From Polyangiaceae bacterium (GTDB lineage Bacteria > Myxococcota_A > Polyangia > Polyangiales > Polyangiaceae): a stretch of 64,000 nucleotides of DNA. Positions 44,765 to 64,000 of this stretch are shown here, in pieces (position 1 is the first letter of the stretch; each line of letters starts with the position of its first letter). The DNA is taken from the NCBI GenBank assembly GCA_025936045.1, contig JAICUB010000008.1:117389-181388 (forward strand), in the 5' to 3' direction. A program made the position numbers and the translations under genes. The notes below the pieces were generated by a model. That model was not told the origin of the DNA and ran no database searches. It saw only the letters and a list, made by a program, of their open reading frames with translations.

Positions 44765-46123
44765 TCAGCGGCGCGCGCGCTTCGCCGGCTTGGCGGGGGC
44801 CTTCTTCGCGCGGGCGGGCGCCTTCGCGTTCGACGCCTTGGGATTCGACATCGCTTTGGCGATTGGCGTCGCCTTCACGGTGGGTGCGCCGGCCTTCCCC
44901 GCGGTCGTTCCGGCCTTTGCCGGTTTGCGCGCGGCAGCTTTAGCCCTGGGTGCCGGGACGGCGCGCGCGGGCTTCGCTCGAGCGGCTTGCTTGGTCTTCG
45001 CCGTGGGTTTGGTCTTGGTGACGGGCCTGGCGTTGGGAGCGGGCCTGGTCTTGGCGACAGGCTTGGCCTTGGGCATGGGCTTGGTCTTCGCGATGGGCTT
45101 GGCCTTGGCTGCCGGCTTGGTGTTCGCGATGGGCTTGGCCTTGGCTGCCGGCTTGGTGTTCGCGACGGGTTTTGCCTTGGCGGCCGGTTTGGTCTTGGCG
45201 ACGGGCTTGGCCTTGGGCATCGGCTTGGCCACGGGTCTCGTCTTCGCCGCCTTCACCGGTACCGCCGTTTTTGCCGCAGTCTTAGGGGCCGCCTTCAGCT
45301 GCGCCTTCGGAAGCGCTTTGGGCATCACCTTCGGCGGGAGCTTCGCCTTCGCGGAAGGCGTCGCCTTGGCGACCGGCTTCGGTGCGAGCTTCGTCTTCGC
45401 GGCGGGCTTCGGCGCAGGCGCTTTTGCCGTCACTGGCTTCTTGACGGGCACGGGACGAAGCGGCGCGACCTTCTTTGGCGGCGCTTCGCTGTCGTCGTCG
45501 TCGTCCGCGTCGTCGTCGTCCGCGTCGTCGTCGTCCGCGTCGTCGTCGTCCGCGTCGTCGTCATCCGCGTCGTCGTCATCCGCGTCGTCGTCGTCCGCGT
45601 CGTCGCTCGCCGAGGGCGCGTCCGCTTCTTCAGCCTCCTCGTCCTCGTCGTCGTCCTCGTCTTCGTCTTCCTCGGAAGCTCGCACTTCGAGCCGGATTTC
45701 GTCGGTAGAGGCGGCATCGGGACGGCCGAGGGCGCCGGCCTGGCGTCGCTCGAGCGTCTCTTCGATCTTTCGATCGAGCTCCGCAAACTCGAACGGCTTG
45801 TCCACGTGTGCATCGGCTCCGTAGAGCGGCGACGTCATTTCGTTCAGCGCCTCGCCGATGCCGGTGAGCATGACGACGCCCGTGTGCGCGAGCGACACGG
45901 CCTCGCGGATCTTCCGGCACACCTCCCATCCGCTCATCCCTGGCATCATCACATCGAGGATCACGAGGTGCGGCAGGTGCTCATGGGCGAGCTCCCACGC
46001 TTGATCGCCATCGCTCGCTTCGAGAACGGTGTAACCGCGCGCTCGCAAGTGACGAGCGAGCAGCGCGACGGTGCTCGGTTCGTCATCAGCGACGAGGACC
46101 ACGTACTTGTTGTCGTTGGACAT
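44765..46123 (-). CDS. response regulator (REC) with acidic (ADDDD)n block and histone H1/AlgP-like Lys/Ala/Pro tail
   Basis: REC: VVLVADDEPSTVALLARHLRARGYTVLEASDGDQAWELAHEHLPHLVILDVMMPGMSGWEVCRKI...GADAHVDKPFEFAELDRKI. Then ADDDD x7, then ~240 aa of KPAAKAKP-type repeats. Confidence 0.9.
   Translation of the reverse strand: MSNDNKYVVLVADDEPSTVALLARHLRARGYTVLEASDGDQAWELAHEHLPHLVILDVMMPGMSGWEVCRKIREAVSLAHTGVVMLTGIGEALNEMTSPLYGADAHVDKPFEFAELDRKIEETLERRQAGALGRPDAASTDEIRLEVRASEEDEDEDDDEDEEAEEADAPSASDDADDDDADDDDADDDDADDDDADDDDADDDDADDDDDSEAPPKKVAPLRPVPVKKPVTAKAPAPKPAAKTKLAPKPVAKATPSAKAKLPPKVMPKALPKAQLKAAPKTAAKTAVPVKAAKTRPVAKPMPKAKPVAKTKPAAKAKPVANTKPAAKAKPIANTKPAAKAKPIAKTKPMPKAKPVAKTRPAPNARPVTKTKPTAKTKQAARAKPARAVPAPRAKAAARKPAKAGTTAGKAGAPTVKATPIAKAMSNPKASNAKAPARAKKAPAKPAKRARR
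45061..45180 (-). repeat. 36-bp tandem repeat in the Lys/Ala/Pro tail
   Basis: Unit ttggccttggctgccggcttggtgttcgcgatgggc repeated with minor changes; encodes (P)IANTKPAAKAK-type units. Confidence 0.75.
45491..45608 (-). repeat. 15-bp in-frame tandem repeat encoding ADDDD
   Basis: gtcgtcgtccgcgtc repeated about 7 times with gtc/atc variants, all in frame with the response regulator gene. Confidence 0.9.
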
Positions 46124-48177: not shown

Positions 48178-48480
48178 TCAGCCGCTCGAAACGTCCTCGA
48201 GTGCGCGTTCACGGTCGCGAACCTCGAGGCGGTAACGGCTGTTGACGGTCTCGATGTAGAACACGTCGCGGGAGGCGAGGCGGAGTACGCGTTTGACCGG
48301 AGTCGTCACGTACTCGTGCATCCCATCCGAAAACTCGATCACTACGACCGAACCCCGCCGCGGCGCCCTCACCAGGCGTCCTGCAACGGCTCGTGATCCG
48401 CGCCCGAGCTTTCTAAGCACGACCTGCACGTTCATCAGTCTAGCAAGGTCCTTTCGGGAGTCCACCGGTGAGCTCGTCAT
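48178..48480 (-). CDS. uncharacterised small protein, probably all-beta
   Basis: LVRAPRRGSVVVIEFSDGMHEYVTTPVKRVLRLASRDVFYIETVNSRYRLEVRD; alternative start MNVQVVLRKLG. Confidence 0.55.
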   Translation of the reverse strand: MTSSPVDSRKDLARLMNVQVVLRKLGRGSRAVAGRLVRAPRRGSVVVIEFSDGMHEYVTTPVKRVLRLASRDVFYIETVNSRYRLEVRDRERALEDVSSG

Positions 48481-48605: not shown

Positions 48606-49631
48606 TCAGTAGGTGAGCGTCGCCGTCAGACGAAAGAAGGCGCCTCGTAGCGCGAGGTCATCGAAGCGCAACGGTTCGAGCCGCGCGGGCCTTTGGTTGT
48701 TCGAGCCCGTGTCCTTGAAATCGACCTTGGACGATGCGGACCACGAGTAGCCGCCGTCGGCGCCGACCCAGCCGCGAGGCCGCGTGGATGCGCCGCGCGC
48801 GTCGCCCGCAAACTCGAACGCCGCGCCCAGCGAGAAATCGCTCGTGAACACCCAAGCCTGCGACTCGCGATCGATGTCGAGTACTTGATCGTGGAGCGTC
48901 GCCGCCGAATGGAGCGCGCCGGGGGCGATACGCCCGAACACGTAAAGGCGTCGGACCAGGTGGTAACGTCCCTCGGCACCGGCCGTGATTCGATGCACCA
49001 CGAGCGACGCATCGGCTTGCCGGGCCGTGGCTTTCGTAGAGCCGTAATCCCAGACGACCAGCGCCGCGACGGACAGCGGACCGCTCGCGTAGAAGGCGCG
49101 GCCGAAGTCCAGCGACACCTGCGGAAGCACGTTGTCCGTACTGAACGGATCGTAACCCTTGCCCGTGACGAACGTCTCGCGAAGGCCCACGCCGAGGCGC
49201 CAGTGCTCTTGGTGTGTGCCCAGCTGACCATCGTCTACCTGGTTGCGGTCGGGTTCCGGAGCTGGACGCGGAGCTAAGGCGGGAGTCGACACGAAGGCGT
49301 TCGCTGAAACGGCGGGTGCGGGCGCCACCGGGGTCGCGTCCGAGTCGGGCGCGCGGGGGCTCGGGGACGGCCTGTCGTCGTCGTCCTCGTCGGTTGCAGG
49401 TTTCGGCGGCGCGGGCGCGGGCGGTGCGGGCGCGGGCAGTGCGGGCGCGGGCAGTGCGGGTGCGGGTGTCGCGCTCGGCGCGGCGGGCCCGGGCGCTTCC
49501 TCGTTCGCTGCGGGCGGCCTTTGCGCGGCGGCACTCGCGGTCACGCCCGCGAGCATTGCGAACACGCACATGGCTCCGAAGGTGGGACGCCCGCGGCCGC
49601 GCGTGAGCTCCGAAAGCAAGCGGTCAATCAT
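48606..49631 (-). CDS. predicted outer-membrane beta-barrel protein with Pro/Ala-rich N-terminal linker
   Basis: Signal peptide, PAPALPAPAPPAPAPPK linker, then alternating beta-strand segments ending in LRGAFFRLTATLTY (terminal aromatic, OMP-like). Start overlaps the upstream gene by 8 bp. Confidence 0.68.
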   Translation of the reverse strand: MIDRLLSELTRGRGRPTFGAMCVFAMLAGVTASAAAQRPPAANEEAPGPAAPSATPAPALPAPALPAPAPPAPAPPKPATDEDDDDRPSPSPRAPDSDATPVAPAPAVSANAFVSTPALAPRPAPEPDRNQVDDGQLGTHQEHWRLGVGLRETFVTGKGYDPFSTDNVLPQVSLDFGRAFYASGPLSVAALVVWDYGSTKATARQADASLVVHRITAGAEGRYHLVRRLYVFGRIAPGALHSAATLHDQVLDIDRESQAWVFTSDFSLGAAFEFAGDARGASTRPRGWVGADGGYSWSASSKVDFKDTGSNNQRPARLEPLRFDDLALRGAFFRLTATLTY

Positions 49632-51219
49632 GGTTCAACCCTCCGTAAGCGAGGCCGCTGTAGAAGCGGGTGTTCGCGGTGTCCGGCGCCAGCGCGTCGA
49701 ACAGCGTGGCTCCGAAGTCGGAGTCGCCCTGATGCAGCACGATCGCCGTGCGCCCCACGCCGCCGTTGCTTTGCGCGATGTCGAAGACGCTCCAGATCGG
49801 TCGCTCGGTATTGAGCTCGTTCGGATTCAAGTCAGCGAGATCGATGCTCGCGAACGCCTCCGTGCCCGGCGTGAACGCCCAAAGGCGCTGGCTCCGACCG
49901 TCCGGCGCGAACGTCAGCTGAAACGTATGTCCGTTGGTCAACATCGGCGAGCTCCGCCGCGCCGCGAGATCCAAGACGTAAAAGTCGCCGGAAACGCCTT
50001 GAAGGATCTTCGAGGTCGTGAAGGTGTCGCCGGGTACGTCGAGCACCTGGCGGATGCTCGCGCCGACGGCGAGCGTATCGAGGCCGTGCGTCGCCGTCGT
50101 CGTGGCGGCGCCGAGATCCCAGAGCCCGACGGTCGGCGTCGTGTTGCTCCAGAGCAGCGCGATGTCCGTGCTCGTGTCGCTTCCGAGGTCGGACGTGACG
50201 AGCGTGATGCCGGTGAACGGCTTCGACAGCGCGACGTTCAGCACGTTGCTGGTTGCGGGATCGACGAGCGCGGCGTTCGTACCGACGAGCGCGACGAGGC
50301 GCGTCCCCGCGTCCGTGTTGACGAAGTGAATCGTGCTCGGCTCTCCGCCCACGTCGACCAGGTTCGGCTCGATGTAAAACGGGCGGTCGGAGCCGGCCGG
50401 CGGGGCCGCGAGCGGCAGGAGCAGGACGTTCGTGTCGTTGTCGAGCCGAACGGCGAGCTCGGAATCGAGGGTCCCGTCCGCGTCGTGAAACGCAACTTCG
50501 GCGGGAGCCCCCGTCGCGCCCTGCTGGTTTTCCGGCATCGGAATCGTCACCTGCCGGGTTGCGCGCTCCTCGTCGCCGATCGAGTCCGACAAATCCACGA
50601 GCGTCACTTCGTTCTGCGTCTCGATCGCGAGCAGGCGTCGCGGGTCGCCGTTAGGCACGCTGAGCTTGCTCGTGAACGAGAAATTCTGCGGCGATCCGCT
50701 GATGCTCTGCACCGTCATCGCGATCGGATCGCGCTCGAGGTCGGCGAGATTGACGAGCAGGATCTCGTTCGGGTTCGAGACGGGACGGCTGTCGCTGCTC
50801 GTCACGTACAAGACCGCCCATTCGTTCTCGGGGTCGAGCACGAGGCCGCTCAAAGGGTCGTTGAATTCGTAAGTGCGCGCGACGCGCGGGGTCGGATCGC
50901 TTTCGATCACCGTCAAGCGCGGCCGCTCGTCACTCGGATTGCGACGCGGTGAAATTCCGCGCGACAGCACGTACAAGCGCTTTCCGTCGGGTGAGGCGGA
51001 GGCGCTGACCAAATTCTGGCCGATCGGGAGGCTGTGCTCCTCGAGCCCGAGCGGACCCGGCGAGGTGAGCAGAAGCGCGCGATCGAGCGTCGGATCGAGC
51101 ACGGCCACGGCGTTGTCGAGCCCGACCGGGTCGGTCGGCGTGAAGGGCGCGTCCCAGTGGCTCGCGCGGCCGCCGCACCCGAGAACCAAACAAGCACAAA
51201 GCCAATGCTTCTTCATCAT
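49624..51219 (-). CDS. predicted beta-propeller lipoprotein (third paralogue-like member)
   Basis: LCACLVLGCGG lipobox; repeated SASPDGKRLYVLSRG / LAVRLDNDTNVLLLPL / QLTFAPDGRSQRLWAF blade-like units; overlaps the upstream gene by 4 bp. Confidence 0.75.
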   Translation of the reverse strand: MMKKHWLCACLVLGCGGRASHWDAPFTPTDPVGLDNAVAVLDPTLDRALLLTSPGPLGLEEHSLPIGQNLVSASASPDGKRLYVLSRGISPRRNPSDERPRLTVIESDPTPRVARTYEFNDPLSGLVLDPENEWAVLYVTSSDSRPVSNPNEILLVNLADLERDPIAMTVQSISGSPQNFSFTSKLSVPNGDPRRLLAIETQNEVTLVDLSDSIGDEERATRQVTIPMPENQQGATGAPAEVAFHDADGTLDSELAVRLDNDTNVLLLPLAAPPAGSDRPFYIEPNLVDVGGEPSTIHFVNTDAGTRLVALVGTNAALVDPATSNVLNVALSKPFTGITLVTSDLGSDTSTDIALLWSNTTPTVGLWDLGAATTTATHGLDTLAVGASIRQVLDVPGDTFTTSKILQGVSGDFYVLDLAARRSSPMLTNGHTFQLTFAPDGRSQRLWAFTPGTEAFASIDLADLNPNELNTERPIWSVFDIAQSNGGVGRTAIVLHQGDSDFGATLFDALAPDTANTRFYSGLAYGGLNHD

Positions 51220-52916
51220 TGCGTCACTTTCGCCGCCAGCTCGAAGCCGGTCAGCGTGCGTTGGGAAGCGTCAGTGAGACTGACGAACGTGATGCGCCCT
51301 TCCGGATGCGCTTGCGCGACGAAGCCGTAATTGCCGACGATGCCGGCCGACAACGGCGGACTCGAGAGTTGGATGAACGTCTGCTCGAGGCTCCCGAGCT
51401 CGACGAGGTACATGCCGTAGCGCGCCTTGCCGAGGTCACGCGTGGTGATCACCGCTTGGGCGCCGTCCGAAGCGAACGCGAGCGCGGTCGGCGGCGCGTC
51501 CGTGCCGATGATCTTCGGCGCGCGGTCGAGTTGCGCGGAGACGATGCTGAACGCGCCTTCCTTGGTGCTGCCCGTCGCGGGCGTCTGGAAGGTGATGCCG
51601 TGTCGTCCGTCGGGTGCGGCGAAGGCGGCTTGGACAGGTGCCTTCAGGTCGACCGCGCGAGCTTCGTACGTCGACCAAGCGCCGCCGCCCGTGAGGATGC
51701 CGAGGTATTGGTCGGCGGTCGCATTACTATAGAGGAGCGCGAGCGACGTGTCGGGGGAGAGCGTGACGCTGCGACCGACCTCGCCGTCGGCCGACGCGCG
51801 AGCGAACGTGCTCGGATCGGCGTCGCCGGGCGGCACGGGCACCACCACGAGCGCGCCTCCGGTCACGGCAAACGCTTGTTTGCCGTCAGCCGACAGATCG
51901 AGATCGGTCACGTAATCGGGCAGCGTCACGGTGTCGCGCGTGCCCGTGCCGAGGTCGACGAAACCGAGCGTCTTTTGGCCGTCGAGCCGCACGACCGCGT
52001 AAGCGCCGTCGGGCGTCACGCTCACGTCGCGGGCGGCCTGGTCGGAGACCGGATCGTCGGTGAGCAGCACGTCGCGATCCGGGTGCGGCGCGTCGCCCAG
52101 GTCGATGACCGTCATGCCCGGCGCGGTCACGAAGAACGCGTGTGCTTCCTGGTCGTCGAACGAGACGGCGGACGGCCGGTAACCGACGGTGAGAATCGTC
52201 GTCGTCACGGGGTCGTCGTCGAGCTTCGCGACCGTCACGTCCTGCAAGCCGTCCGTCGGGTCGAGCTTCGACGCGTCCTCGAGGTCGGCGTTGCTCCAGA
52301 TGACCGCCCATTTTCCGCTCGGCGACACGTCGACGGCGTTTGCGCCCGCGTGCGTCTGCAACATCTGCGATTTGATCACGCCGTCCGCACCCAGGCGCAG
52401 CACGGTGGCATCGTCGCTCCCGGCGTTGAGCACGATCGCCGCGTCTTCGTCGTGACCGGGCAGCGCCGCGACGGTGGTCGGCGCGTTGCCCGCCTCGGCC
52501 AGGCGCACGCTGAAATCGTCGGCTGAGATCAGCGCGACTTTGCCGGTCGTCGGATTGGCGGTCCACACGTAGCGGTCGGTCGCGACCGGTGTCTCGTACG
52601 CGGTCTCGAGCTCCTTCTCGGGTGGGGGGGGCGGCGGCGGCTCGGACGTGCCGCCGCTGCCCGACGGTGACAGGTTGGTCGTCCCGCCCGACCCACTGGA
52701 TCCGCCAGCCGCCGGGCTCCCGTTGCCGGTCGCCCCGCTGCCCTGAAAGCTGCCGCCGCTCCCGTCGGTCAGCCCGCTCGTCGGTGCCTCGGAGCTACCG
52801 TCCACCGAGCACGCTCCTAGCGTCGTTGCAAGAGCACCGAGCGCAACCGTCGCGACCGCAACGGTGAATCGACCGAGCTCCGCGCCTGCGCCTCGATCCG
52901 ATCGCCTGTCAGTCAC
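51216..52916 (-). CDS. predicted beta-propeller lipoprotein (second member)
   Basis: ALATTLGACSVDG lipobox; Gly/Ser linker; VDVSPSGKWAVIWSNAD, VSVTPDGAYAVVRLDG, TLSPDTSLALLYSNAT, GNYGFVAQAHPEGRITFVSL; overlaps the upstream gene by 8 bp. Confidence 0.8.
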   Translation of the reverse strand: MTDRRSDRGAGAELGRFTVAVATVALGALATTLGACSVDGSSEAPTSGLTDGSGGSFQGSGATGNGSPAAGGSSGSGGTTNLSPSGSGGTSEPPPPPPPEKELETAYETPVATDRYVWTANPTTGKVALISADDFSVRLAEAGNAPTTVAALPGHDEDAAIVLNAGSDDATVLRLGADGVIKSQMLQTHAGANAVDVSPSGKWAVIWSNADLEDASKLDPTDGLQDVTVAKLDDDPVTTTILTVGYRPSAVSFDDQEAHAFFVTAPGMTVIDLGDAPHPDRDVLLTDDPVSDQAARDVSVTPDGAYAVVRLDGQKTLGFVDLGTGTRDTVTLPDYVTDLDLSADGKQAFAVTGGALVVVPVPPGDADPSTFARASADGEVGRSVTLSPDTSLALLYSNATADQYLGILTGGGAWSTYEARAVDLKAPVQAAFAAPDGRHGITFQTPATGSTKEGAFSIVSAQLDRAPKIIGTDAPPTALAFASDGAQAVITTRDLGKARYGMYLVELGSLEQTFIQLSSPPLSAGIVGNYGFVAQAHPEGRITFVSLTDASQRTLTGFELAAKVTQ

Positions 52917-54978
52917 CTTGCACCACCCTTGCGGCGAGCTCGAAGCCGGTGAGCGTCCGCGGTTGTCCGGTCACGAGGTCGAGGAACGTGATGCGCCCTT
53001 CCGGATGCGATTGCGCGACGAAGCCGAGGCTCGCCGCCGGATCGGTCACGATCCCGGCTGAAATCGGCGGACTGGCGAGCGTGATCCGCGTGGTCCCGAA
53101 CCCCGGCAATTGCGCGAGATAAACGGCGTGGACCGCGAGGTTCTTCACCGGATCCGTGCCGTCCACCGTGACGAGCGCCTGGCTGTCGCCGACGGCGACT
53201 GCTTGCGGTGGCGCGTCCGTGCCGACGATCTTCGGCGCGAGCGAAGTCGTGAGCGGGATCAAACTGAAGCCGCCCGGCTTTTGGCTGCCCGTCGCCTGGC
53301 CGAGGAGCGCTACGGCGTGCAAGCCGTCCGGGGACGGAAGCACGACTTTCACCGGCGCCTCGACGAGCACGGTGCGCACGACGCTGAACGATTTGGTGTC
53401 GAGGATGACGACGTGATCGCTCGGCGTCGCGTTCGTGTAGAGCAGCGCGACGTCGCCTTGCGGCGCGATCACGATGCTGCCCACCTGGTCGTCGATCGCG
53501 ATTTGTTCGAAGGTGGTCGGGTTTTTGAGCACTTTGGCGAGGTCGAGCGCGGCGACGTACGAGGGCGCCGTGACGGTGCCACTACCCGTGCCGCCGCCGC
53601 CGGCGCTGCCGGGGCCGCCCCCGCTGGCGCCCGTCGATTGCACGGGAGAGCCGGCGTTGCCGGTCGCGCCCGCTTCGGCCGGGGCGCCGCCTTCAGCGGG
53701 TGCGCCGCCTTCAGCGGATGCTCCCGCCTCGGCTTGCCCGGCTACGCCAGTCTCGGTCGCGCCGCTCATCCCGCCTTCGGCAGCGCCGGCTTGATCGCCT
53801 TCGCCTCCGGCGTTGAGGCCGCCAGCCGTACCGGCAGCGTTTGCGCCGCTCGTGCCGCCCGCGCCGCTCGTGCCGCCCGCGCCGCTCGTGCCGCCCGCGC
53901 CGCTCGTGCCGCCCGCGCCGCTCGCGCCGCTCGTGCCGCCCGTGCCGCTCGTGCCGCTCGTGCCGCCTGCGCCGTTGGTGCCGCCTGCGCCGTTGGTGCC
54001 GCCTGCGCCGCCGTTCGAGGGCGTGGTCGAACGCACCACGGCGAACGCGACCTTGCCGTCGGGCGCGAGATCGAGATCGGTGACGGCTCCCGGCAGCGTT
54101 ACCTCCACGTCTTTACCGTCGGCGAGCGAAATCACGTCGACGATGCGGCTCCCTTCGTGCCGCACGACGGCCGCGCTTCCGTCCGGAGTCACGGTGACAT
54201 CGCGCACGCTCTTCGCGTCCTGCGGGTTCGCGGTCACCGCTACATCGCGCGAGACACTCGGCGGATCCGTCGCGGGCAGGTCGACGACGCTGATGCCGGG
54301 CTCCGTGACGAAATACGCGTGCGCCTCGCCCGCGCCGAAGCTCACACGCGAGGGGCGATACCCGACGGTCAGGCGGTACGACGCGGCCGGTGTGACGCCG
54401 AGGTCGAGCACCGTCACGTCTTGCAAGCCTTCGGTCGGATCGGGAGCGTTGACGAGCGTCGCGTCCGACCAGACGAGCGCCCAGCGACCGCTCGGGCTGA
54501 CGGTCATGCGGTTCGCGCCGGGGTGCACCTTTGCGGTCTGCACGTCGAGCTCGCCGTTCACCGCGTGAATGATGCTCGCCGTGTCGTTGCCGATGTTCAG
54601 CACGATGGCCGAAGACGTGGTGTCGTCGCTCGTGCCGAGCGCGGCGACGTAGGTCGGCGCGAGGCCGGCGTCCGCCGTCGTGACCCGGAAGCTCGCGGCG
54701 TCGATCAGAGCGACCTTGCCGCTCAGCGGGTTGGCCGACCAAATCCAACGACCGCTCACGACCGGCGCCGTGTACGAATCGTCGTTCTCCGTCTCGGGAG
54801 GAGGTGGCGGCTGCTGTCCAGTCGAGTTCGACCCGCCCGTGCCTCCGGCCGCTCCGCTACCGCCTGGATACGGCAGGCCGCCAAGCCCGTTGTCACTGAC
54901 CTTGTTGGACGTCGAGCAGGCGCCGATCAGGCTCGCGCCCAAAACTCCCAGGATCGTCAGCCGCCGGTGTGCCACCAA
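52909..54978 (-). CDS. predicted beta-propeller lipoprotein with large Gly-rich insertion (first member)
   Basis: LGASLIGACSTS lipobox; MTVSPSGRWALVWSDAT, VTVTPDGSAAVVRHEG, IVIAPQGDVALLYTNAT, LGFVAQSHPEGRITFLDL match the 51216 gene; ~150-aa GGTSGAGG insert. Confidence 0.82.
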   Translation of the reverse strand: MVAHRRLTILGVLGASLIGACSTSNKVSDNGLGGLPYPGGSGAAGGTGGSNSTGQQPPPPPETENDDSYTAPVVSGRWIWSANPLSGKVALIDAASFRVTTADAGLAPTYVAALGTSDDTTSSAIVLNIGNDTASIIHAVNGELDVQTAKVHPGANRMTVSPSGRWALVWSDATLVNAPDPTEGLQDVTVLDLGVTPAASYRLTVGYRPSRVSFGAGEAHAYFVTEPGISVVDLPATDPPSVSRDVAVTANPQDAKSVRDVTVTPDGSAAVVRHEGSRIVDVISLADGKDVEVTLPGAVTDLDLAPDGKVAFAVVRSTTPSNGGAGGTNGAGGTNGAGGTSGTSGTGGTSGASGAGGTSGAGGTSGAGGTSGAGGTSGANAAGTAGGLNAGGEGDQAGAAEGGMSGATETGVAGQAEAGASAEGGAPAEGGAPAEAGATGNAGSPVQSTGASGGGPGSAGGGGTGSGTVTAPSYVAALDLAKVLKNPTTFEQIAIDDQVGSIVIAPQGDVALLYTNATPSDHVVILDTKSFSVVRTVLVEAPVKVVLPSPDGLHAVALLGQATGSQKPGGFSLIPLTTSLAPKIVGTDAPPQAVAVGDSQALVTVDGTDPVKNLAVHAVYLAQLPGFGTTRITLASPPISAGIVTDPAASLGFVAQSHPEGRITFLDLVTGQPRTLTGFELAARVVQGD
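53570..54015 (-). repeat. Gly/Ala/Thr/Ser-rich tandem repeat tract inside the propeller gene
   Basis: gccgctcgtgccgcccgc-type 18-bp units coding GGTSGA(G/S) repeated; in frame. Confidence 0.8.
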
Positions 54979-55211: not shown

Positions 55212-55916
55212 TCAGTCGCCGTAGACCGAGCACCTGAACGAGCGCGCGGCGTAAGCCAAGAGCTCGAGTCGTCCCGACACTCCGAGCTTACGGAAGACGG
55301 CGGAAACTTGGTTGGCAACCGTGCGCGTCGACGCGTTGCGCAGCGCCGCGATCTCCGAACGGCTGTGCCCGTCAGCGAGCAGTCGTGTCACCGCGTACTC
55401 CGTCGACGTGAGGAGCGGCGCGAGGCACAAATCGGGTCGCGGAATGCTTGCGATGCCGAACGCCGTGGCACCTTCACCCCAGCCGCGAAAGCGCGCTTCG
55501 GTAAGGTCGGTGCTGCCGTGATGGGCATGAATGGCCGCGACGAGAAAGCTCGGCACCCGCGACGCCTGGCAACTGAAGCCCATCGTCTTCAGTGACTGAG
55601 CGAGTGACCACGCGACGGTGGATGCGGTGCGGCCGAGCTCGATGGCGACGACCTTCTGGCAAGGTGCCGACAGGGTTCGCTCGAGGATTTCGAGCTGGCG
55701 CTCGGTGAGCGAAGCGCGGCCCCCTGGCACCGCGCGCAGATCGAACGCGAGGTAGCTGCGGTCGCCGACCGAGAAACTGTCGACGACGGCCCAGCGACCG
55801 GTGACTAGGTTGTCCCAGACAGCTGCCAGCGCGACGGGCGTGTAGCCGCCCCGCTCACGGGAGGAGGCGGGGGGTAGATCCGATCGAGAGTACTGAGCGT
55901 AGAGCGGTTGGGTCAT
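55212..55916 (-). CDS. regulator with two LuxR-type HTH modules
   Basis: SLTERQLEILERTLSAPCQKVVAIELGRTASTVAWSLAQSLKTMGFS and LTSTEYAVTRLLADGHSRSEIAALRNASTRTVANQVSAVFRKLGVSGRLELLAYAAR. Start MTQPLYAQ; M at 55955 also possible. Confidence 0.78.
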   Translation of the reverse strand: MTQPLYAQYSRSDLPPASSRERGGYTPVALAAVWDNLVTGRWAVVDSFSVGDRSYLAFDLRAVPGGRASLTERQLEILERTLSAPCQKVVAIELGRTASTVAWSLAQSLKTMGFSCQASRVPSFLVAAIHAHHGSTDLTEARFRGWGEGATAFGIASIPRPDLCLAPLLTSTEYAVTRLLADGHSRSEIAALRNASTRTVANQVSAVFRKLGVSGRLELLAYAARSFRCSVYGD

Positions 55917-56065
55917 GACGCTGACACCCTTCAGCAAGGGGCGTTCCAGCGACATTTGGGCGCTTTCAGCGCATTTTCGCAGGGCCTTTTGCTCACCCGG
56001 GTAGACACCGTCAAATGCATTGGACGGTTCGGCCCGCCCCCGCATGACCCTACGGCCGGCTACGC

Positions 56066-57715
56066 CTAGCGCTTGAGACCGAAGGCGTTGATGAGGTTGT
56101 AGATGTGCGCGCGCGTGAGATCGAGATCGCGCGCCGCGGCGCTGACGTTCCACGAGTTGGCTTCGAGCACGCGCTTGACGAGGTCGGCCTGGAACCGTCG
56201 CGTCTCTTCCTGAAAGGTGCGCGTGGGGCCGGGCGCCTGTGCATCGCCGTGCTTCAAAAACAGGTGATGCACCTCGATTTGCGACGCTCGCTGCGACGCC
56301 GCGCGGATGGTCGCCGACTCGACCGCGTTCGCGAGCTGACGCACGTTCCCGGGCCACTCGGCGCTCTCGACCGCGCGAATGGCCGCCGGCGAGAGCGCGA
56401 CGCGCGGGAGCTTGTGCGCCTTGCACGCGCGCTCGCAGAAGTACGTCGCGAGCAGCCCCTTGTCCTCCGGCCGCTCCCCGAGCGAGGGCACGCGCACCGT
56501 CATCACCTCGAGCCGATAGCGCAAATCCTCGCGAAAGCGGCGCTCCGCGACGGCCGCCTGCAGATCGACGTGCGTCGCCGCGATCACGCGCACGTCGGCT
56601 TTCGACGGCCGTGACGCGCCGAGCGGGTAATACTCCTTCGCTTGCAAGAGCTGCAGCAGCTTCGCCTGCGCGGGCAGCGAGAGATCGCCGATCTCGTCGA
56701 GCAAGAGGGTGCCGCCCTGCGCCGCCGCCACCTTGCCTTCACTCCGGCGCGCGGCCGTCGAGTGCGCGCCCGCCATCGAACCGAAGAGCTCGTTCTCGAT
56801 CAGCGTGTCGGGCAAGGCCGCGCAATTGACCTCGACGAACGGCTGCGTCGCGCGCGGGCTGTTCGCGTGGATCAGCCGCGCCAGATCGGTCTTGCCCGTG
56901 CCCGTTTCGCCGGTGAGCAGCACGCCGACTTCGAGCGGCGCGAGGTGCTCGACTTCCTGGAGCAGGCTCGCGAGCGCCGGGCTCCGGCCGTGGAACGCGA
57001 CGGCGCCAAGGCGCTTGCGCAGAGCGCCGAGCTCGCCGCCACCCTGACTTTGCCGCTTGAGCACGAGGTGCTGGCGGAGCGGCGCGAGGTGCTCGGCAAA
57101 TTGCGTGAGCCAGCCGCTCGCCTCGTTTGCGGCGAGCCCGGCGCCCCCCTGGAGGTAGACGATGCCGCACGGCGGGTCACGCCCGATGGGCGCGCACAGC
57201 ACGACGTCGATGAGCGAGCGGCGCACGCTGTCGCGATGCCGGAATCGTGGGTCGAGCAGCGCCGACGGCGTGAACACCACGCGCTCGGTCGCGACCGCTT
57301 CCGAGATGATGCCGCGCGACACGAGCTGGCGGACCTCATCGGTCTGTTGCTCCGAGAAGCCGAACGAGTAACGCCACGGCTCGTCGACGTCGTCGGGCGC
57401 GAACAGCTCGAGGTAGCCTTGCGCAGCGCCCATCACGCCGACGATGAGCTCGAGCGCCTCGCGCAAAAATGCGTGCGGATCCCCCTCGAGGTTCAGCCGC
57501 AAAAGGCCGCGATAGAGGTCGCGTTCCTTCCGCACGTAGTCGTACTCGCCCGTGCTCGGCGGGCGGCGGCTCGAGGGTCGGGCTTCGCTCTGTACGCCTT
57601 CGACGCCCGGGTTGGCTTCGTCGGGGTCCTCAGCGCGGCTGCCCAAATTGACCTCGGATCTCCGTTCAGACCTATCCGTTCCGTGCCGCTCCGTCCAACC
57701 CCGCGCCGATTTCAC
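56066..57715 (-). CDS. sigma54-type AAA+ activator (GAF-like + AAA+ + Fis HTH) with non-canonical GAFTGA loop (GAHSTA)
   Basis: VLLTGETGTGKTDLARLIH (Walker A), ENELFGSMAGAHSTAARR in place of ...GAFTGA, GGTLLLDEIGDLSLPAQAKLLQLLQ (Walker B), C-term DLVKRVLEANSWNVSAAARDLDLTRAHIYNLINAFGLKR. Confidence 0.9.
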   Translation of the reverse strand: MKSARGWTERHGTDRSERRSEVNLGSRAEDPDEANPGVEGVQSEARPSSRRPPSTGEYDYVRKERDLYRGLLRLNLEGDPHAFLREALELIVGVMGAAQGYLELFAPDDVDEPWRYSFGFSEQQTDEVRQLVSRGIISEAVATERVVFTPSALLDPRFRHRDSVRRSLIDVVLCAPIGRDPPCGIVYLQGGAGLAANEASGWLTQFAEHLAPLRQHLVLKRQSQGGGELGALRKRLGAVAFHGRSPALASLLQEVEHLAPLEVGVLLTGETGTGKTDLARLIHANSPRATQPFVEVNCAALPDTLIENELFGSMAGAHSTAARRSEGKVAAAQGGTLLLDEIGDLSLPAQAKLLQLLQAKEYYPLGASRPSKADVRVIAATHVDLQAAVAERRFREDLRYRLEVMTVRVPSLGERPEDKGLLATYFCERACKAHKLPRVALSPAAIRAVESAEWPGNVRQLANAVESATIRAASQRASQIEVHHLFLKHGDAQAPGPTRTFQEETRRFQADLVKRVLEANSWNVSAAARDLDLTRAHIYNLINAFGLKR

Positions 57716-57733: not shown

Positions 57734-58972
57734 TCAGGGGGCACTGACGCCCTTCTTCCCTTTTTGCGCGAAGTAGGCGCGCAGAGCGTCGCGCGCGAGC
57801 TGCGGCGCCTTGATCTGCCAGCTCGGGTTATTCACGACGAGCGCGCTCACAGCGACCTCGGGCGCCTCGATCGGCGCGAACCCGATGAACCACGTGTAGA
57901 GCTTCGACGCGTCGGCGGCATCGCCGAGCGTGCCCGTCTTGCCGGCCGCCGTGACCTCGCCGAGGAACGAGGTGCCCGCCGCGTCGTGGAAGCTCTTGAA
58001 CGCGGAGCCGTTCGCGACCGTCTGCGCCATCATGCGCGTGAGGTCGGCGGCGGTCTCGGGTTTGATGGCACGGCGGAGCACTCGCGGCGGCCCGTCGTCT
58101 CTCCAGAGCACCTCGCGATCCTTCATGACCGACGCGACGATGCGCGGCTCGAGCGTCACGCCGCCGTTCGCCACCGTTTGCGCGAGCTCGACCGCCGCGA
58201 GCGGCGAGAGCGTGCTGTGATAAAACCCGGCCGCCGAGCGCGCGAATTCGACTGGATCCGCCGGCAACTTGAGCTCGGGTGCCTGGTTCGGCACGGCGAA
58301 CGGAATCGGGGCGCCGAAGCCGAACGCGCCGCCGACCGCCGTCAAATCTTCGGGCGTGATGTGCTTTTGGGCGAGCCGAGCGAAAACGACGTTGATGCTG
58401 CGGCCGAGCGCGATGCCGAGCGTCGCGCACCATTTGTCGCGGCGCGGGTTGTCCTCGAGCTCGTCGGCTGCGATGCGGCTCTTGCCGCCGTGATAGCACT
58501 GCTCCGTATCCGGGCCGAGGCCGCCCTTCTCGATGAGCGCCGCGCCCGTGACGACCTTGAAAACGCTCGCGGCCGGCGCGTCGGCGCGGACGTTGACGTC
58601 GACCTTGTCGCCTTCTCCGACGTAGCTCGCGTACGCAAGGATCCTCCCCGTCTTCACTTCCATCAGGACGACGCCGGAGCGCGGAATGCGATACCCCTCC
58701 ATCTCGGAATGGATGGAGCGCTGCACGACCGGATCGAGGGTGAGCTCGGCCTGACGTCCTTGTGAGAGCGGCGCCGTCACCTTGGTCGGGCGCACGTCGA
58801 GCCGCAGGAGGTCGAGCCCGTCCAGGGACGGAGGCGCGGCGGGCGCCGCAGCGGCCGGCCGCAACTTCCGGAGCGGCTCGCTCACGTCGATGTTGCCGCG
58901 CACGACCGGAACGAGCGCGAGCACGATCCCGAGAGCGGTCCCGAAGCCGATGAGGCTGCTGTAGCGCCGCAT
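57734..58972 (-). CDS. penicillin-binding transpeptidase
   Basis: ASVFKVVTGAALI (SxxK), RSINVVFARLA (SxN), AAGKTGTLGDA (KTG); N-terminal TM anchor; start at MRRYSSLIGF. Confidence 0.87.
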   Translation of the reverse strand: MRRYSSLIGFGTALGIVLALVPVVRGNIDVSEPLRKLRPAAAAPAAPPSLDGLDLLRLDVRPTKVTAPLSQGRQAELTLDPVVQRSIHSEMEGYRIPRSGVVLMEVKTGRILAYASYVGEGDKVDVNVRADAPAASVFKVVTGAALIEKGGLGPDTEQCYHGGKSRIAADELEDNPRRDKWCATLGIALGRSINVVFARLAQKHITPEDLTAVGGAFGFGAPIPFAVPNQAPELKLPADPVEFARSAAGFYHSTLSPLAAVELAQTVANGGVTLEPRIVASVMKDREVLWRDDGPPRVLRRAIKPETAADLTRMMAQTVANGSAFKSFHDAAGTSFLGEVTAAGKTGTLGDAADASKLYTWFIGFAPIEAPEVAVSALVVNNPSWQIKAPQLARDALRAYFAQKGKKGVSAP

Positions 58973-59220
58973 GCTGCCCGGGAGTATCGGGCCGAGCCCC
59001 GCGGGGCCAAGAAACGCGCCGAGTTCCGGAGCTTGGCGCCCGAAAAAGCTGACGTTTCTGCCGTGACGCGCGCGCGGGAGCGAGCCTGCCGGTAGCGGGC
59101 AGGCGCGCACGGGACTATCGTTGTCTTCGTGGGGCTCGTCCCCGCGAGGTCGCTTCGCCCATTACCCGCGCCGCTAGAGAAGCCGTTTCCAAGGCCAGCC
59201 TCGAAGTCGAGAGCACGGCG

Positions 59221-62235: not shown

Positions 62236-64000
62236 TCAGGGCGCGGGGCGCTCCGTCGAAAGGTCGACGAGCAGGTTCGGAAGTAGGGTCTCGAGCCCTT
62301 GCGCGAAGCCCTCCAGATTGGGACGCACGCCGGGCTTGTAGCCGCGCGAGATGAAGGGGCGCACGAGCTCGGCGTTCCTGCTCAGCACGTGGACCGGCAC
62401 GCCGAATTCCCAGGTGTCGCCGTTCACCTCCGCGACCGGCTGGTGATCCCCGAGGATGATGACGAGCGAGCCGTCCTTGATGAATTGGCCGATGTACTGC
62501 CGCAGGATCTCGAAGTCGTAGATGATCGACTTGCCGTAGGCTTCCGTCGCGTTCTCGAAGTGCGGCCACTCGATCGGGAAGCGCTCCATCGGCACGTCGT
62601 TGAAAAGCGCGCCGTCACCGAGGCGGCCCCAGTCCGCCACCGGGGTCGGCAGCTTGGACCACGGCGCGTGGCTCGAAACGAGGACGTATTGAATGAAGAG
62701 CGGCTGCTTGGCGCGCTCGATCTCGCTGCGGCGCATGAAATCGAGGACGTACTGGTCGGGCATCGTGGCCCAGGCGTAGCTCGGGCCGCGGTAATGGAAG
62801 TCGCGGTTCAGGTAGTTCGCGTCGAACCCGTAGAAGCCGCCGTCAGACAAAGCGCGAGTCGTGTTCGGCTCCGCGAGCACCGTGCGATAGCCGGCACGGC
62901 GGAAGTAGCCGGCGATGGAATGCGGCTTTTTTGCCGCGACGATTTCGTAGTCGAGCTGCGTGCGTACGGGGATCCCCGTATCGAGCGTCGCGTGCGCGAG
63001 CCACGACTGGCCGCCGTAGGTGGTCGAGTTCAGGATCCCGGTCGCCATCGTGAAGCCACGCTCCCCGAGGTCCTTCTCGAAGGCATCGTAGGACGCCTTC
63101 GACGCCGCGACGTGCGGTGGCCACTCGAACATCGTCCGCCCGTACGACTCGACGAGGATCAGATAGACGTTCGTGCCGCGGAGTTTGGCGAGATCGGTCG
63201 GCAACCCGTCGAGCATCGTCTCGGTTTGCGCGATGAGCCTCGCGTACTCGGTCTGTTGGCCGCGCACGTTCCAGAAGAACGCGACCTCTTCCTCGAAGCG
63301 GGGCATCGCGCTCGCGGCAAAGCCACCGGAGTAGTAGGCGTCGAACTTCGGGTTATGACCTGCCGCCGATACGGAGAGGTACGTCAAACCGAGCAGGGCC
63401 GCTCCAACCGTGACTTGTCGACCCTCGCGTAGGTAGCGCTCTACTACTTCGAGCGCGCGGTAGAGGACGAACGCCGTCGCGGCGAGGGCCGCGACACCGA
63501 GCACCGCACCCAGCACCACTTGCCATGCCGGCCAGGTCGAGTTGAGAAAGCGGATGCCGTCGGCGACTTGGCCGAAGTTACTGTAGACGTTGAAGCGCTG
63601 CGCGAAATAGCGCCCCATGAAGCCGTCCCCGAAGCGGAGCAGCCGCACGAGGAACATCCACGCGACGACGAGTCCCTTCATCCAGCGCGGGACGGCTCCG
63701 TTGAGGAGCCCCATGATCGCGAGATTCAGCAGGATGATCGCGATGTCCGTCGACGGCAGGAGGTACCAAAAAGCCGCCTCGTCGAGCGGATAGCGCACGT
63801 TCACCATCGCATCGAGCAGCGCGATCGCGCCGACGAAGCGCAGCGTCGGAGACACGAGGTGTCCCCACGGCTTTGCGGTGGGCCGGTCGCGCGGGTCGTC
63901 TAACTCGTCGTCGTCACGCACGTCGTCGTCGTCACGCACGTCGTCGTCGTCACGCACGTCGTCGTCGTCACGCACGTCGTCGTCGTCACGCACGTCGTCG
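62236..64000 (-). CDS. sulfatase / LTA-synthase-like membrane phosphotransferase (5' end unresolved at window edge)
   Basis: N-terminal TM helices then LRGTNVYLILVESYGRTMFEWPPH...GILNSTTYGGQSWLAHATLDTG...YVLVSSHAPW...LVIILGDHQPVAEV. N-terminus is (VRDDDD)n and reaches the window end. Confidence 0.85.
   Translation of the reverse strand, partial: DDVRDDDDVRDDDDVRDDDDVRDDDDVRDDDELDDPRDRPTAKPWGHLVSPTLRFVGAIALLDAMVNVRYPLDEAAFWYLLPSTDIAIILLNLAIMGLLNGAVPRWMKGLVVAWMFLVRLLRFGDGFMGRYFAQRFNVYSNFGQVADGIRFLNSTWPAWQVVLGAVLGVAALAATAFVLYRALEVVERYLREGRQVTVGAALLGLTYLSVSAAGHNPKFDAYYSGGFAASAMPRFEEEVAFFWNVRGQQTEYARLIAQTETMLDGLPTDLAKLRGTNVYLILVESYGRTMFEWPPHVAASKASYDAFEKDLGERGFTMATGILNSTTYGGQSWLAHATLDTGIPVRTQLDYEIVAAKKPHSIAGYFRRAGYRTVLAEPNTTRALSDGGFYGFDANYLNRDFHYRGPSYAWATMPDQYVLDFMRRSEIERAKQPLFIQYVLVSSHAPWSKLPTPVADWGRLGDGALFNDVPMERFPIEWPHFENATEAYGKSIIYDFEILRQYIGQFIKDGSLVIILGDHQPVAEVNGDTWEFGVPVHVLSRNAELVRPFISRGYKPGVRPNLEGFAQGLETLLPNLLVDLSTERPAP
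63905..64000 (-). repeat. 18-bp in-frame tandem repeat encoding VRDDDD, truncated by window end
   Basis: cgtcgtcgtcgtcacgca repeated about 4-5 times up to the last base. Confidence 0.9.

Follow-up and report, generated by a model that had tools for sequence, protein, structure and literature searches.

The described systems closest to the locus reported here join a lipoprotein to an outer-membrane barrel. In the BamB/BamA pair, BamA is an Omp85 protein of 16 strands with POTRA domains, and BamB is a propeller of the PQQ type (TIGR03300). In Bacteroides, the surface propeller lipoprotein BtuG is stably complexed with the outer-membrane barrel BtuB (PMC10404256), and in E. coli the eight-stranded barrel protein OmpA partners the lipoprotein RcsF via the periplasmic domain of OmpA (PMC7553776). 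The best-known propellers with ten blades are those of the eukaryotic sortilin/Vps10 family (PMC2716378, PMC9356209). Here we describe a four-gene cassette, predicted to encode three propeller lipoproteins and an eight-stranded outer-membrane barrel, in a stretch of 64,000 nucleotides (the window) from the genome of a Polyangiaceae bacterium, and compare it with these systems. Neither the curated families nor the open-licence papers that we searched hold a named module or a described function for this gene set.

Operon structure

The four genes, A to D, all lie on the minus strand: the first propeller lipoprotein, A, at 52909..54978 (689 aa); a second A-type propeller lipoprotein, B, at 51216..52916 (566 aa); a third propeller lipoprotein, C, at 49624..51219 (531 aa); and a signal-peptide barrel protein, D, at 48606..49631 (341 aa). 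A sequence-only reading of the window had proposed this layout, and the coordinates, the strand and the overlaps were all confirmed when the junctions were read. A and B overlap by 8 bp (52909-52916), B and C by 4 bp of the ATGA type (51216-51219) and C and D by 8 bp (49624-49631), which is consistent with one translationally coupled transcript. Gene calling based on codon usage chooses exactly these four frames and offers no rival frame there; for the start of A, either TTG at 54978 or GTG at 54975 is possible. In the gap of about 230 bp that lies 5' of A, a promoter scan gave no convincing sigma-70 promoter or terminator. A search for RNA elements found none.

Propeller lipoproteins and barrel protein

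The lipoboxes noted earlier in A, B and C are present, placing the lipid-bearing cysteine at residues 21, 36 and 15, respectively. This cysteine is aligned in all 39 A-type and all 31 C-type homologues compared, so that the signal peptide, the lipobox and the invariant Cys expected of a bacterial lipoprotein are all found. Between the lipid Cys and the first blade, the A-type proteins have a tether of median 57 residues (44-95), rich in Gly, Ser, Thr, Ala, Asn, Pro and Asp; that of C is short and fixed, with a median of 24 residues (23-39). The sequence-only reading had called the first two propellers paralogous. A and B are clearly so, at 45% identity, and the claim needs widening to C, a further paralogue only remotely related to these two (profile-profile probability 99.3%, E 8e-21, 17% identity). 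The propeller folds that had been proposed are supported by the AlphaFold2 repeats of B, the paralogue of A, and C is classed as a probable propeller from its homology to A and B.

The AlphaFold2 model of B, built from a 39-row alignment, has a mean pLDDT of 84, a pTM of 0.79 and 39 strands. In this model, the strands parse as ten four-stranded repeats of the YVTN type over residues 106-566, with a very short first strand. Most pairings among the profiles of repeats 3-9 give mutual recognition, which is weaker for repeat 10 and almost lacking for repeats 1-2. The ten repeats may form one ten-bladed ring or two five-bladed rings. Foldseek searches with B return propellers at significant E-values and with low TM-scores, as would be expected where the blade number departs from the usual seven or eight. 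Against PDB sequence profiles, A and C retrieve generic YVTN propellers alone. B differs from the seven-bladed lactonase/YVTN type in its ten repeats, and matches to that type are sub-threshold for the window's proteins and sporadic among their homologues. None of the four proteins matches a Pfam or NCBIfam model above the curated cut-off, in agreement with the earlier view of a family without an assigned function. A also carries a Gly/Ala/Thr-rich low-complexity insert of about 150 residues in its blade-6 loop (53578..54033, minus strand), encoded in part by an 18-bp tandem repeat; A copies from the lineage of the window carry a longer version, and the insert is absent from B and from nearly all other A-type proteins.

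D consists of a signal peptide (about residues 1-37), a Pro/Ala linker (38-143) and an eight-stranded outer-membrane barrel (144-341; 48609..49202, minus strand), and its C-terminus, FRLTATLTY, ends in the aromatic residue that the first reading had pointed out together with the signal peptide, the linker and the beta domain. AlphaFold2 predicts the barrel confidently, with eight strands mostly at pLDDT >90, as that reading had anticipated. Its best matches among solved structures by Foldseek are OmpA, Ail, OmpX and OmpW, with TM-scores of about 0.45-0.68 depending on target length. The eight antiparallel strands, C-terminal aromatic and signal peptide of D are those of the OMP_b-brl family; the corresponding Pfam model (PF13505) matches 6 of 30 D homologues at E <= 0.01 (best 1.6e-8) and does not match the window's D. 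Searches of D against PDB sequence profiles gave nothing convincing, and those for Omp85 or POTRA domains no match; the C-terminal peptidoglycan-binding, periplasmic domain of OmpA was found neither in D nor in its homologues. A final F, Y or W is present in 27 of 30 homologues, and the linker before strand 1 varies from 31 to 189 residues among them. Conserved charged residues lie on several strands (E220, R222, R234, an acidic residue at 292 and R334) and could be likened to the salt bridges inside closed barrels of the OmpA type. Loop 1, between strands 1 and 2 (consensus DxGYDxFSxxD), has a mean information content of 2.15, above that of most strands, and the long periplasmic turn T3 has the lowest (0.80). 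Loop 1 is predicted to be extracellular, provided that both termini are periplasmic.

Distribution and co-variation of the cassette

A-type matches occur in 34 of the 59 relatives searched. The wider searches used either an A-type profile (named genomes) or a C-type profile (379 Myxococcota genomes), so neither picked loci for the presence of the other genes. The synteny that had been suggested as a check is indeed conserved: 85 of 97 distinct Myxococcota loci, a few of which share a genome, have A, C and D next to one another on the same strand (84 loci, plus L138, whose D required a more sensitive search). Ten of the remaining 12 stop at a contig edge, and two are lone A genes (L062 and L110). 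These two have neither C nor D nearby and are possibly trailing or dispersed extra copies. Genome G033 (8% contamination) holds three A-type loci (L060, L062 and L063), two of them complete A-C-D sets, reflecting either multiplicity or contamination. The gene orders seen are A-C-D, A-A-C-D, A-C-D-A and C-D-A. Over 84 loci, pairwise distances correlate between A and C (0.92), C and D (0.86) and A and D (0.83), part of which shared species history alone would yield.

The C profile matches 121 of the 379 sampled Myxococcota genomes, 96 of them strongly (E < 1e-20); the weaker matches are probably generic propellers. Judged by the strong matches, the unit is present in about a quarter of the sampled genomes of the phylum. 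When 84,980 species genomes were scanned with an A-type peptide pattern, matches came only from Myxococcota or from records labelled Deltaproteobacteria or Proteobacteria, among them the cultured Minicystis rosea DSM 24000 (L097); the sensitivity of such a pattern is limited, and the scan therefore does not prove absence outside Myxococcota. Many near-complete relatives, congeners among them, lack the cassette, which is thus accessory and does a job that is not essential.

Empty sites define the extent of the unit. In three congeners (G001, G003 and G005), all four genes are absent: a search with the A profile detected no member of the cassette, and its one weak partial match in G003 (E 4e-8) lies in a different protein. 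The genes that flank the cassette in the window's genus, a short penicillin-binding transpeptidase on the left (57734..59110, minus strand) and a conserved 100-aa ORF on the right (48178..48480, minus strand), there adjoin about 190-290 bp apart. The cassette is therefore present or absent as a block among congeners. Because both flanks persist without it, they lie outside the unit, which is the four-gene set. Other genera (G022, G023 and G106) likewise have the transpeptidase immediately upstream of the cassette, which suggests that the cassette occupied this site ancestrally and that G001, G003 and G005 lost its genes together. Taken together with these empty sites, the 85 contiguous A-C-D sets among 97 distinct loci exclude a chance grouping of the genes.

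The neighbouring genes were also considered in their own right. The penicillin-binding protein was rejected as a functional partner, as it persists without the cassette and is adjacent to it in only a subset of loci. Between it and the cassette, the window has a sigma-54 activator (56066-57715) and a LuxR-type regulator, whose real start is probably near 55916 (together 55215-57715, minus strand). This pair accompanies the cassette in G004 and is missing from G001, G003 and G005; as dedicated regulators the two were dismissed, since in G006 the cassette follows directly behind the transpeptidase without them. The 100-aa ORF is 84-99% identical across the genus, unusually high conservation for a small protein of unassigned function, and has no Pfam match above the cut-off. 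Elsewhere in the window, the product of 44765-46123 (minus strand) begins with a CheY-like receiver, continues with a long run rich in Asp (repeated ADDDD) and ends in a tail rich in Lys, Pro and Ala that resembles that of histone H1. A predicted ORF at 62236-63993 (minus strand) opens with repeated RDDDDV units, which are either coding sequence or an artefact of the predicted start site.

A is the gene that duplicates. A tree of 111 A-type proteins shows at least about seven separate origins of tandem A copies (L145; L137; L139/L143; L140; the L130/L133-L135 lineage; the L042/L043/L094 lineage; and the base of the window's group), and C and D are essentially always single copy. In the window's group, the A and B proteins of many genera fall into two distinct sets of orthologues. 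Repeated duplication of A within a fixed operon would be expected if an ancestral complex had two or more A subunits, able to become a hetero-pair, or, alternatively, if A is the ligand-contacting, diversifying subunit.

Discussion

We infer that the products of A, C and D physically associate in one unnamed envelope complex, and we infer likewise its stoichiometry, its ligand binding and its outward side. The module may act as an outer-membrane receptor or scaffold, in which D, as a closed eight-stranded barrel, would be the integral membrane anchor and docking point, the C propeller would be kept near the membrane by its short tether of about 24 residues, and the A-type propellers, on long flexible tethers of about 57 residues, would offer a broad ligand- or partner-binding ring. 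Each complex would probably contain at least two A-type propellers, forming a homo-oligomer from a single gene or, after duplication, an A/B hetero-pair. The outward side is weakly favoured by the conserved outer loops of D, by the long low-complexity tethers and loop inserts and by the diversification of A. As we know of no signal in these bacteria for the export of lipoproteins to the surface, the propellers may instead lie in the periplasm. Taken as a whole, the reading of A-D as one outer-membrane receptor or scaffold complex, more likely facing outward than inward, has in our judgement an even chance of being correct. Its most specific form, a Myxococcota-specific surface receptor in which single-ring ten-bladed propeller lipoproteins, as A/A or A/B pairs, sit with C on a closed eight-stranded barrel, is doubtful. 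The sequence-only reading had named three outcomes that would speak against an undescribed complex (genes that do not co-occur in related genomes, a D not predicted as a barrel, and a function already assigned to the family), and none of them was observed.

The main rival to an outward-facing complex is a scaffold or stress sensor that faces the periplasm, with the propellers hanging from the inner leaflet, D merely anchoring them and its Pro/Ala linker reaching into the periplasm. Outer-membrane lipoproteins face inward by default, and a long N-terminal linker such as that of D (31-189 residues) should itself be periplasmic. In addition, an eight-stranded OmpA barrel is closed and passes no lipoprotein linker (PMC7553776). 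However, D lacks an OmpA-like periplasmic domain, its conserved loops are on the predicted outer face and no conserved signalling gene was found beside the cassette; on balance we regard the inward arrangement as somewhat unlikely. It is also conceivable that A, C and D are co-regulated without associating, so that surface lipoproteins and a small outer-membrane protein would be made together and act separately. The two lone A copies fit this, but the gene content is fixed across classes, the genes overlap and are lost as a block, and duplications within the cassette are restricted to A, which makes mere co-regulation improbable.

The first reading had likened the locus to BamB/BamA, and one operon does hold both propeller lipoproteins and a barrel, so that the propellers might, like BamB, help barrels to assemble, and D might be their client or an adaptor. 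This analogy fails on both components. D is an eight-stranded, OmpA-like barrel and not an Omp85 protein, and the propellers are of the YVTN type with ten repeats, A, B and C giving no match to TIGR03300 or other PQQ models. The best TIGR03300 match of the genome is on another contig, a full-length BamB-like protein (G000 C25:65308-66501; 152 bits, below the curated cut-off), and the cassette is dispensable. A BAM-type accessory role is thus very improbable. Least credible of all, to the point of being hardly worth entertaining, is a surface enzyme module with a lactonase-type propeller: A is weakly similar to lactonase-type propellers and to the hydrazine synthase beta subunit, but these similarities are all weak and generic to YVTN repeats, and the lactonase fold has seven blades rather than the ten repeats seen here.

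If the complex is real, it would bring a further lipoprotein/barrel architecture into a phylum noted for its predation and its social behaviour on surfaces; should the ten-bladed A/A or A/B propellers with C on a closed barrel also prove true, this would be a new architecture of outer-membrane receptors, and a bacterial ring of ten propeller repeats would interest fold specialists. The module is compact and well delimited, and the natural presence and absence among congeners and the availability of the cultured and sequenced M. rosea strain make it directly testable.

Among the known systems, BtuG-BtuB is the nearest working analogue, as it likewise encodes a propeller lipoprotein and an outer-membrane barrel in one operon. 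BtuG is, however, a single seven-bladed propeller, whereas the cassette has two to three propeller lipoproteins, with ten repeats in B, and BtuB is a TonB-dependent transporter with a plug, whereas D is an eight-stranded barrel without a transport pore and so lacks the transporter that characterises SusCD and BtuBG systems. RcsF-OmpA also pairs an outer-membrane lipoprotein with an eight-stranded barrel, and the inward-facing alternative is comparable to it in spirit; RcsF, though, is not a propeller and binds the OmpA periplasmic domain that is absent from D. With barrels of the OmpA/OmpX/Ail/OmpW type (PF13505), D shares the fold and the C-terminal aromatic, and differs in its long N-terminal Pro/Ala linker, in lacking the OmpA periplasmic domain and in its constant company of propeller lipoproteins. 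The propellers share their repeat type and a weak profile similarity with YVTN proteins (TIGR02276; the archaeal surface-layer protein 1l0q; hydrazine synthase beta, 5c2v), but have ten repeats instead of seven, a lipid anchor and no curated match above cut-off. BamB/BamA resembles the cassette in placing a propeller lipoprotein and a barrel at the outer membrane, and departs from it in repeat type, blade number and barrel type, with a BamB-like gene elsewhere in the same genome. Judged by the curated families and open-licence papers searched, the cassette is an undescribed variant of the known outer-membrane lipoprotein/barrel assemblies.
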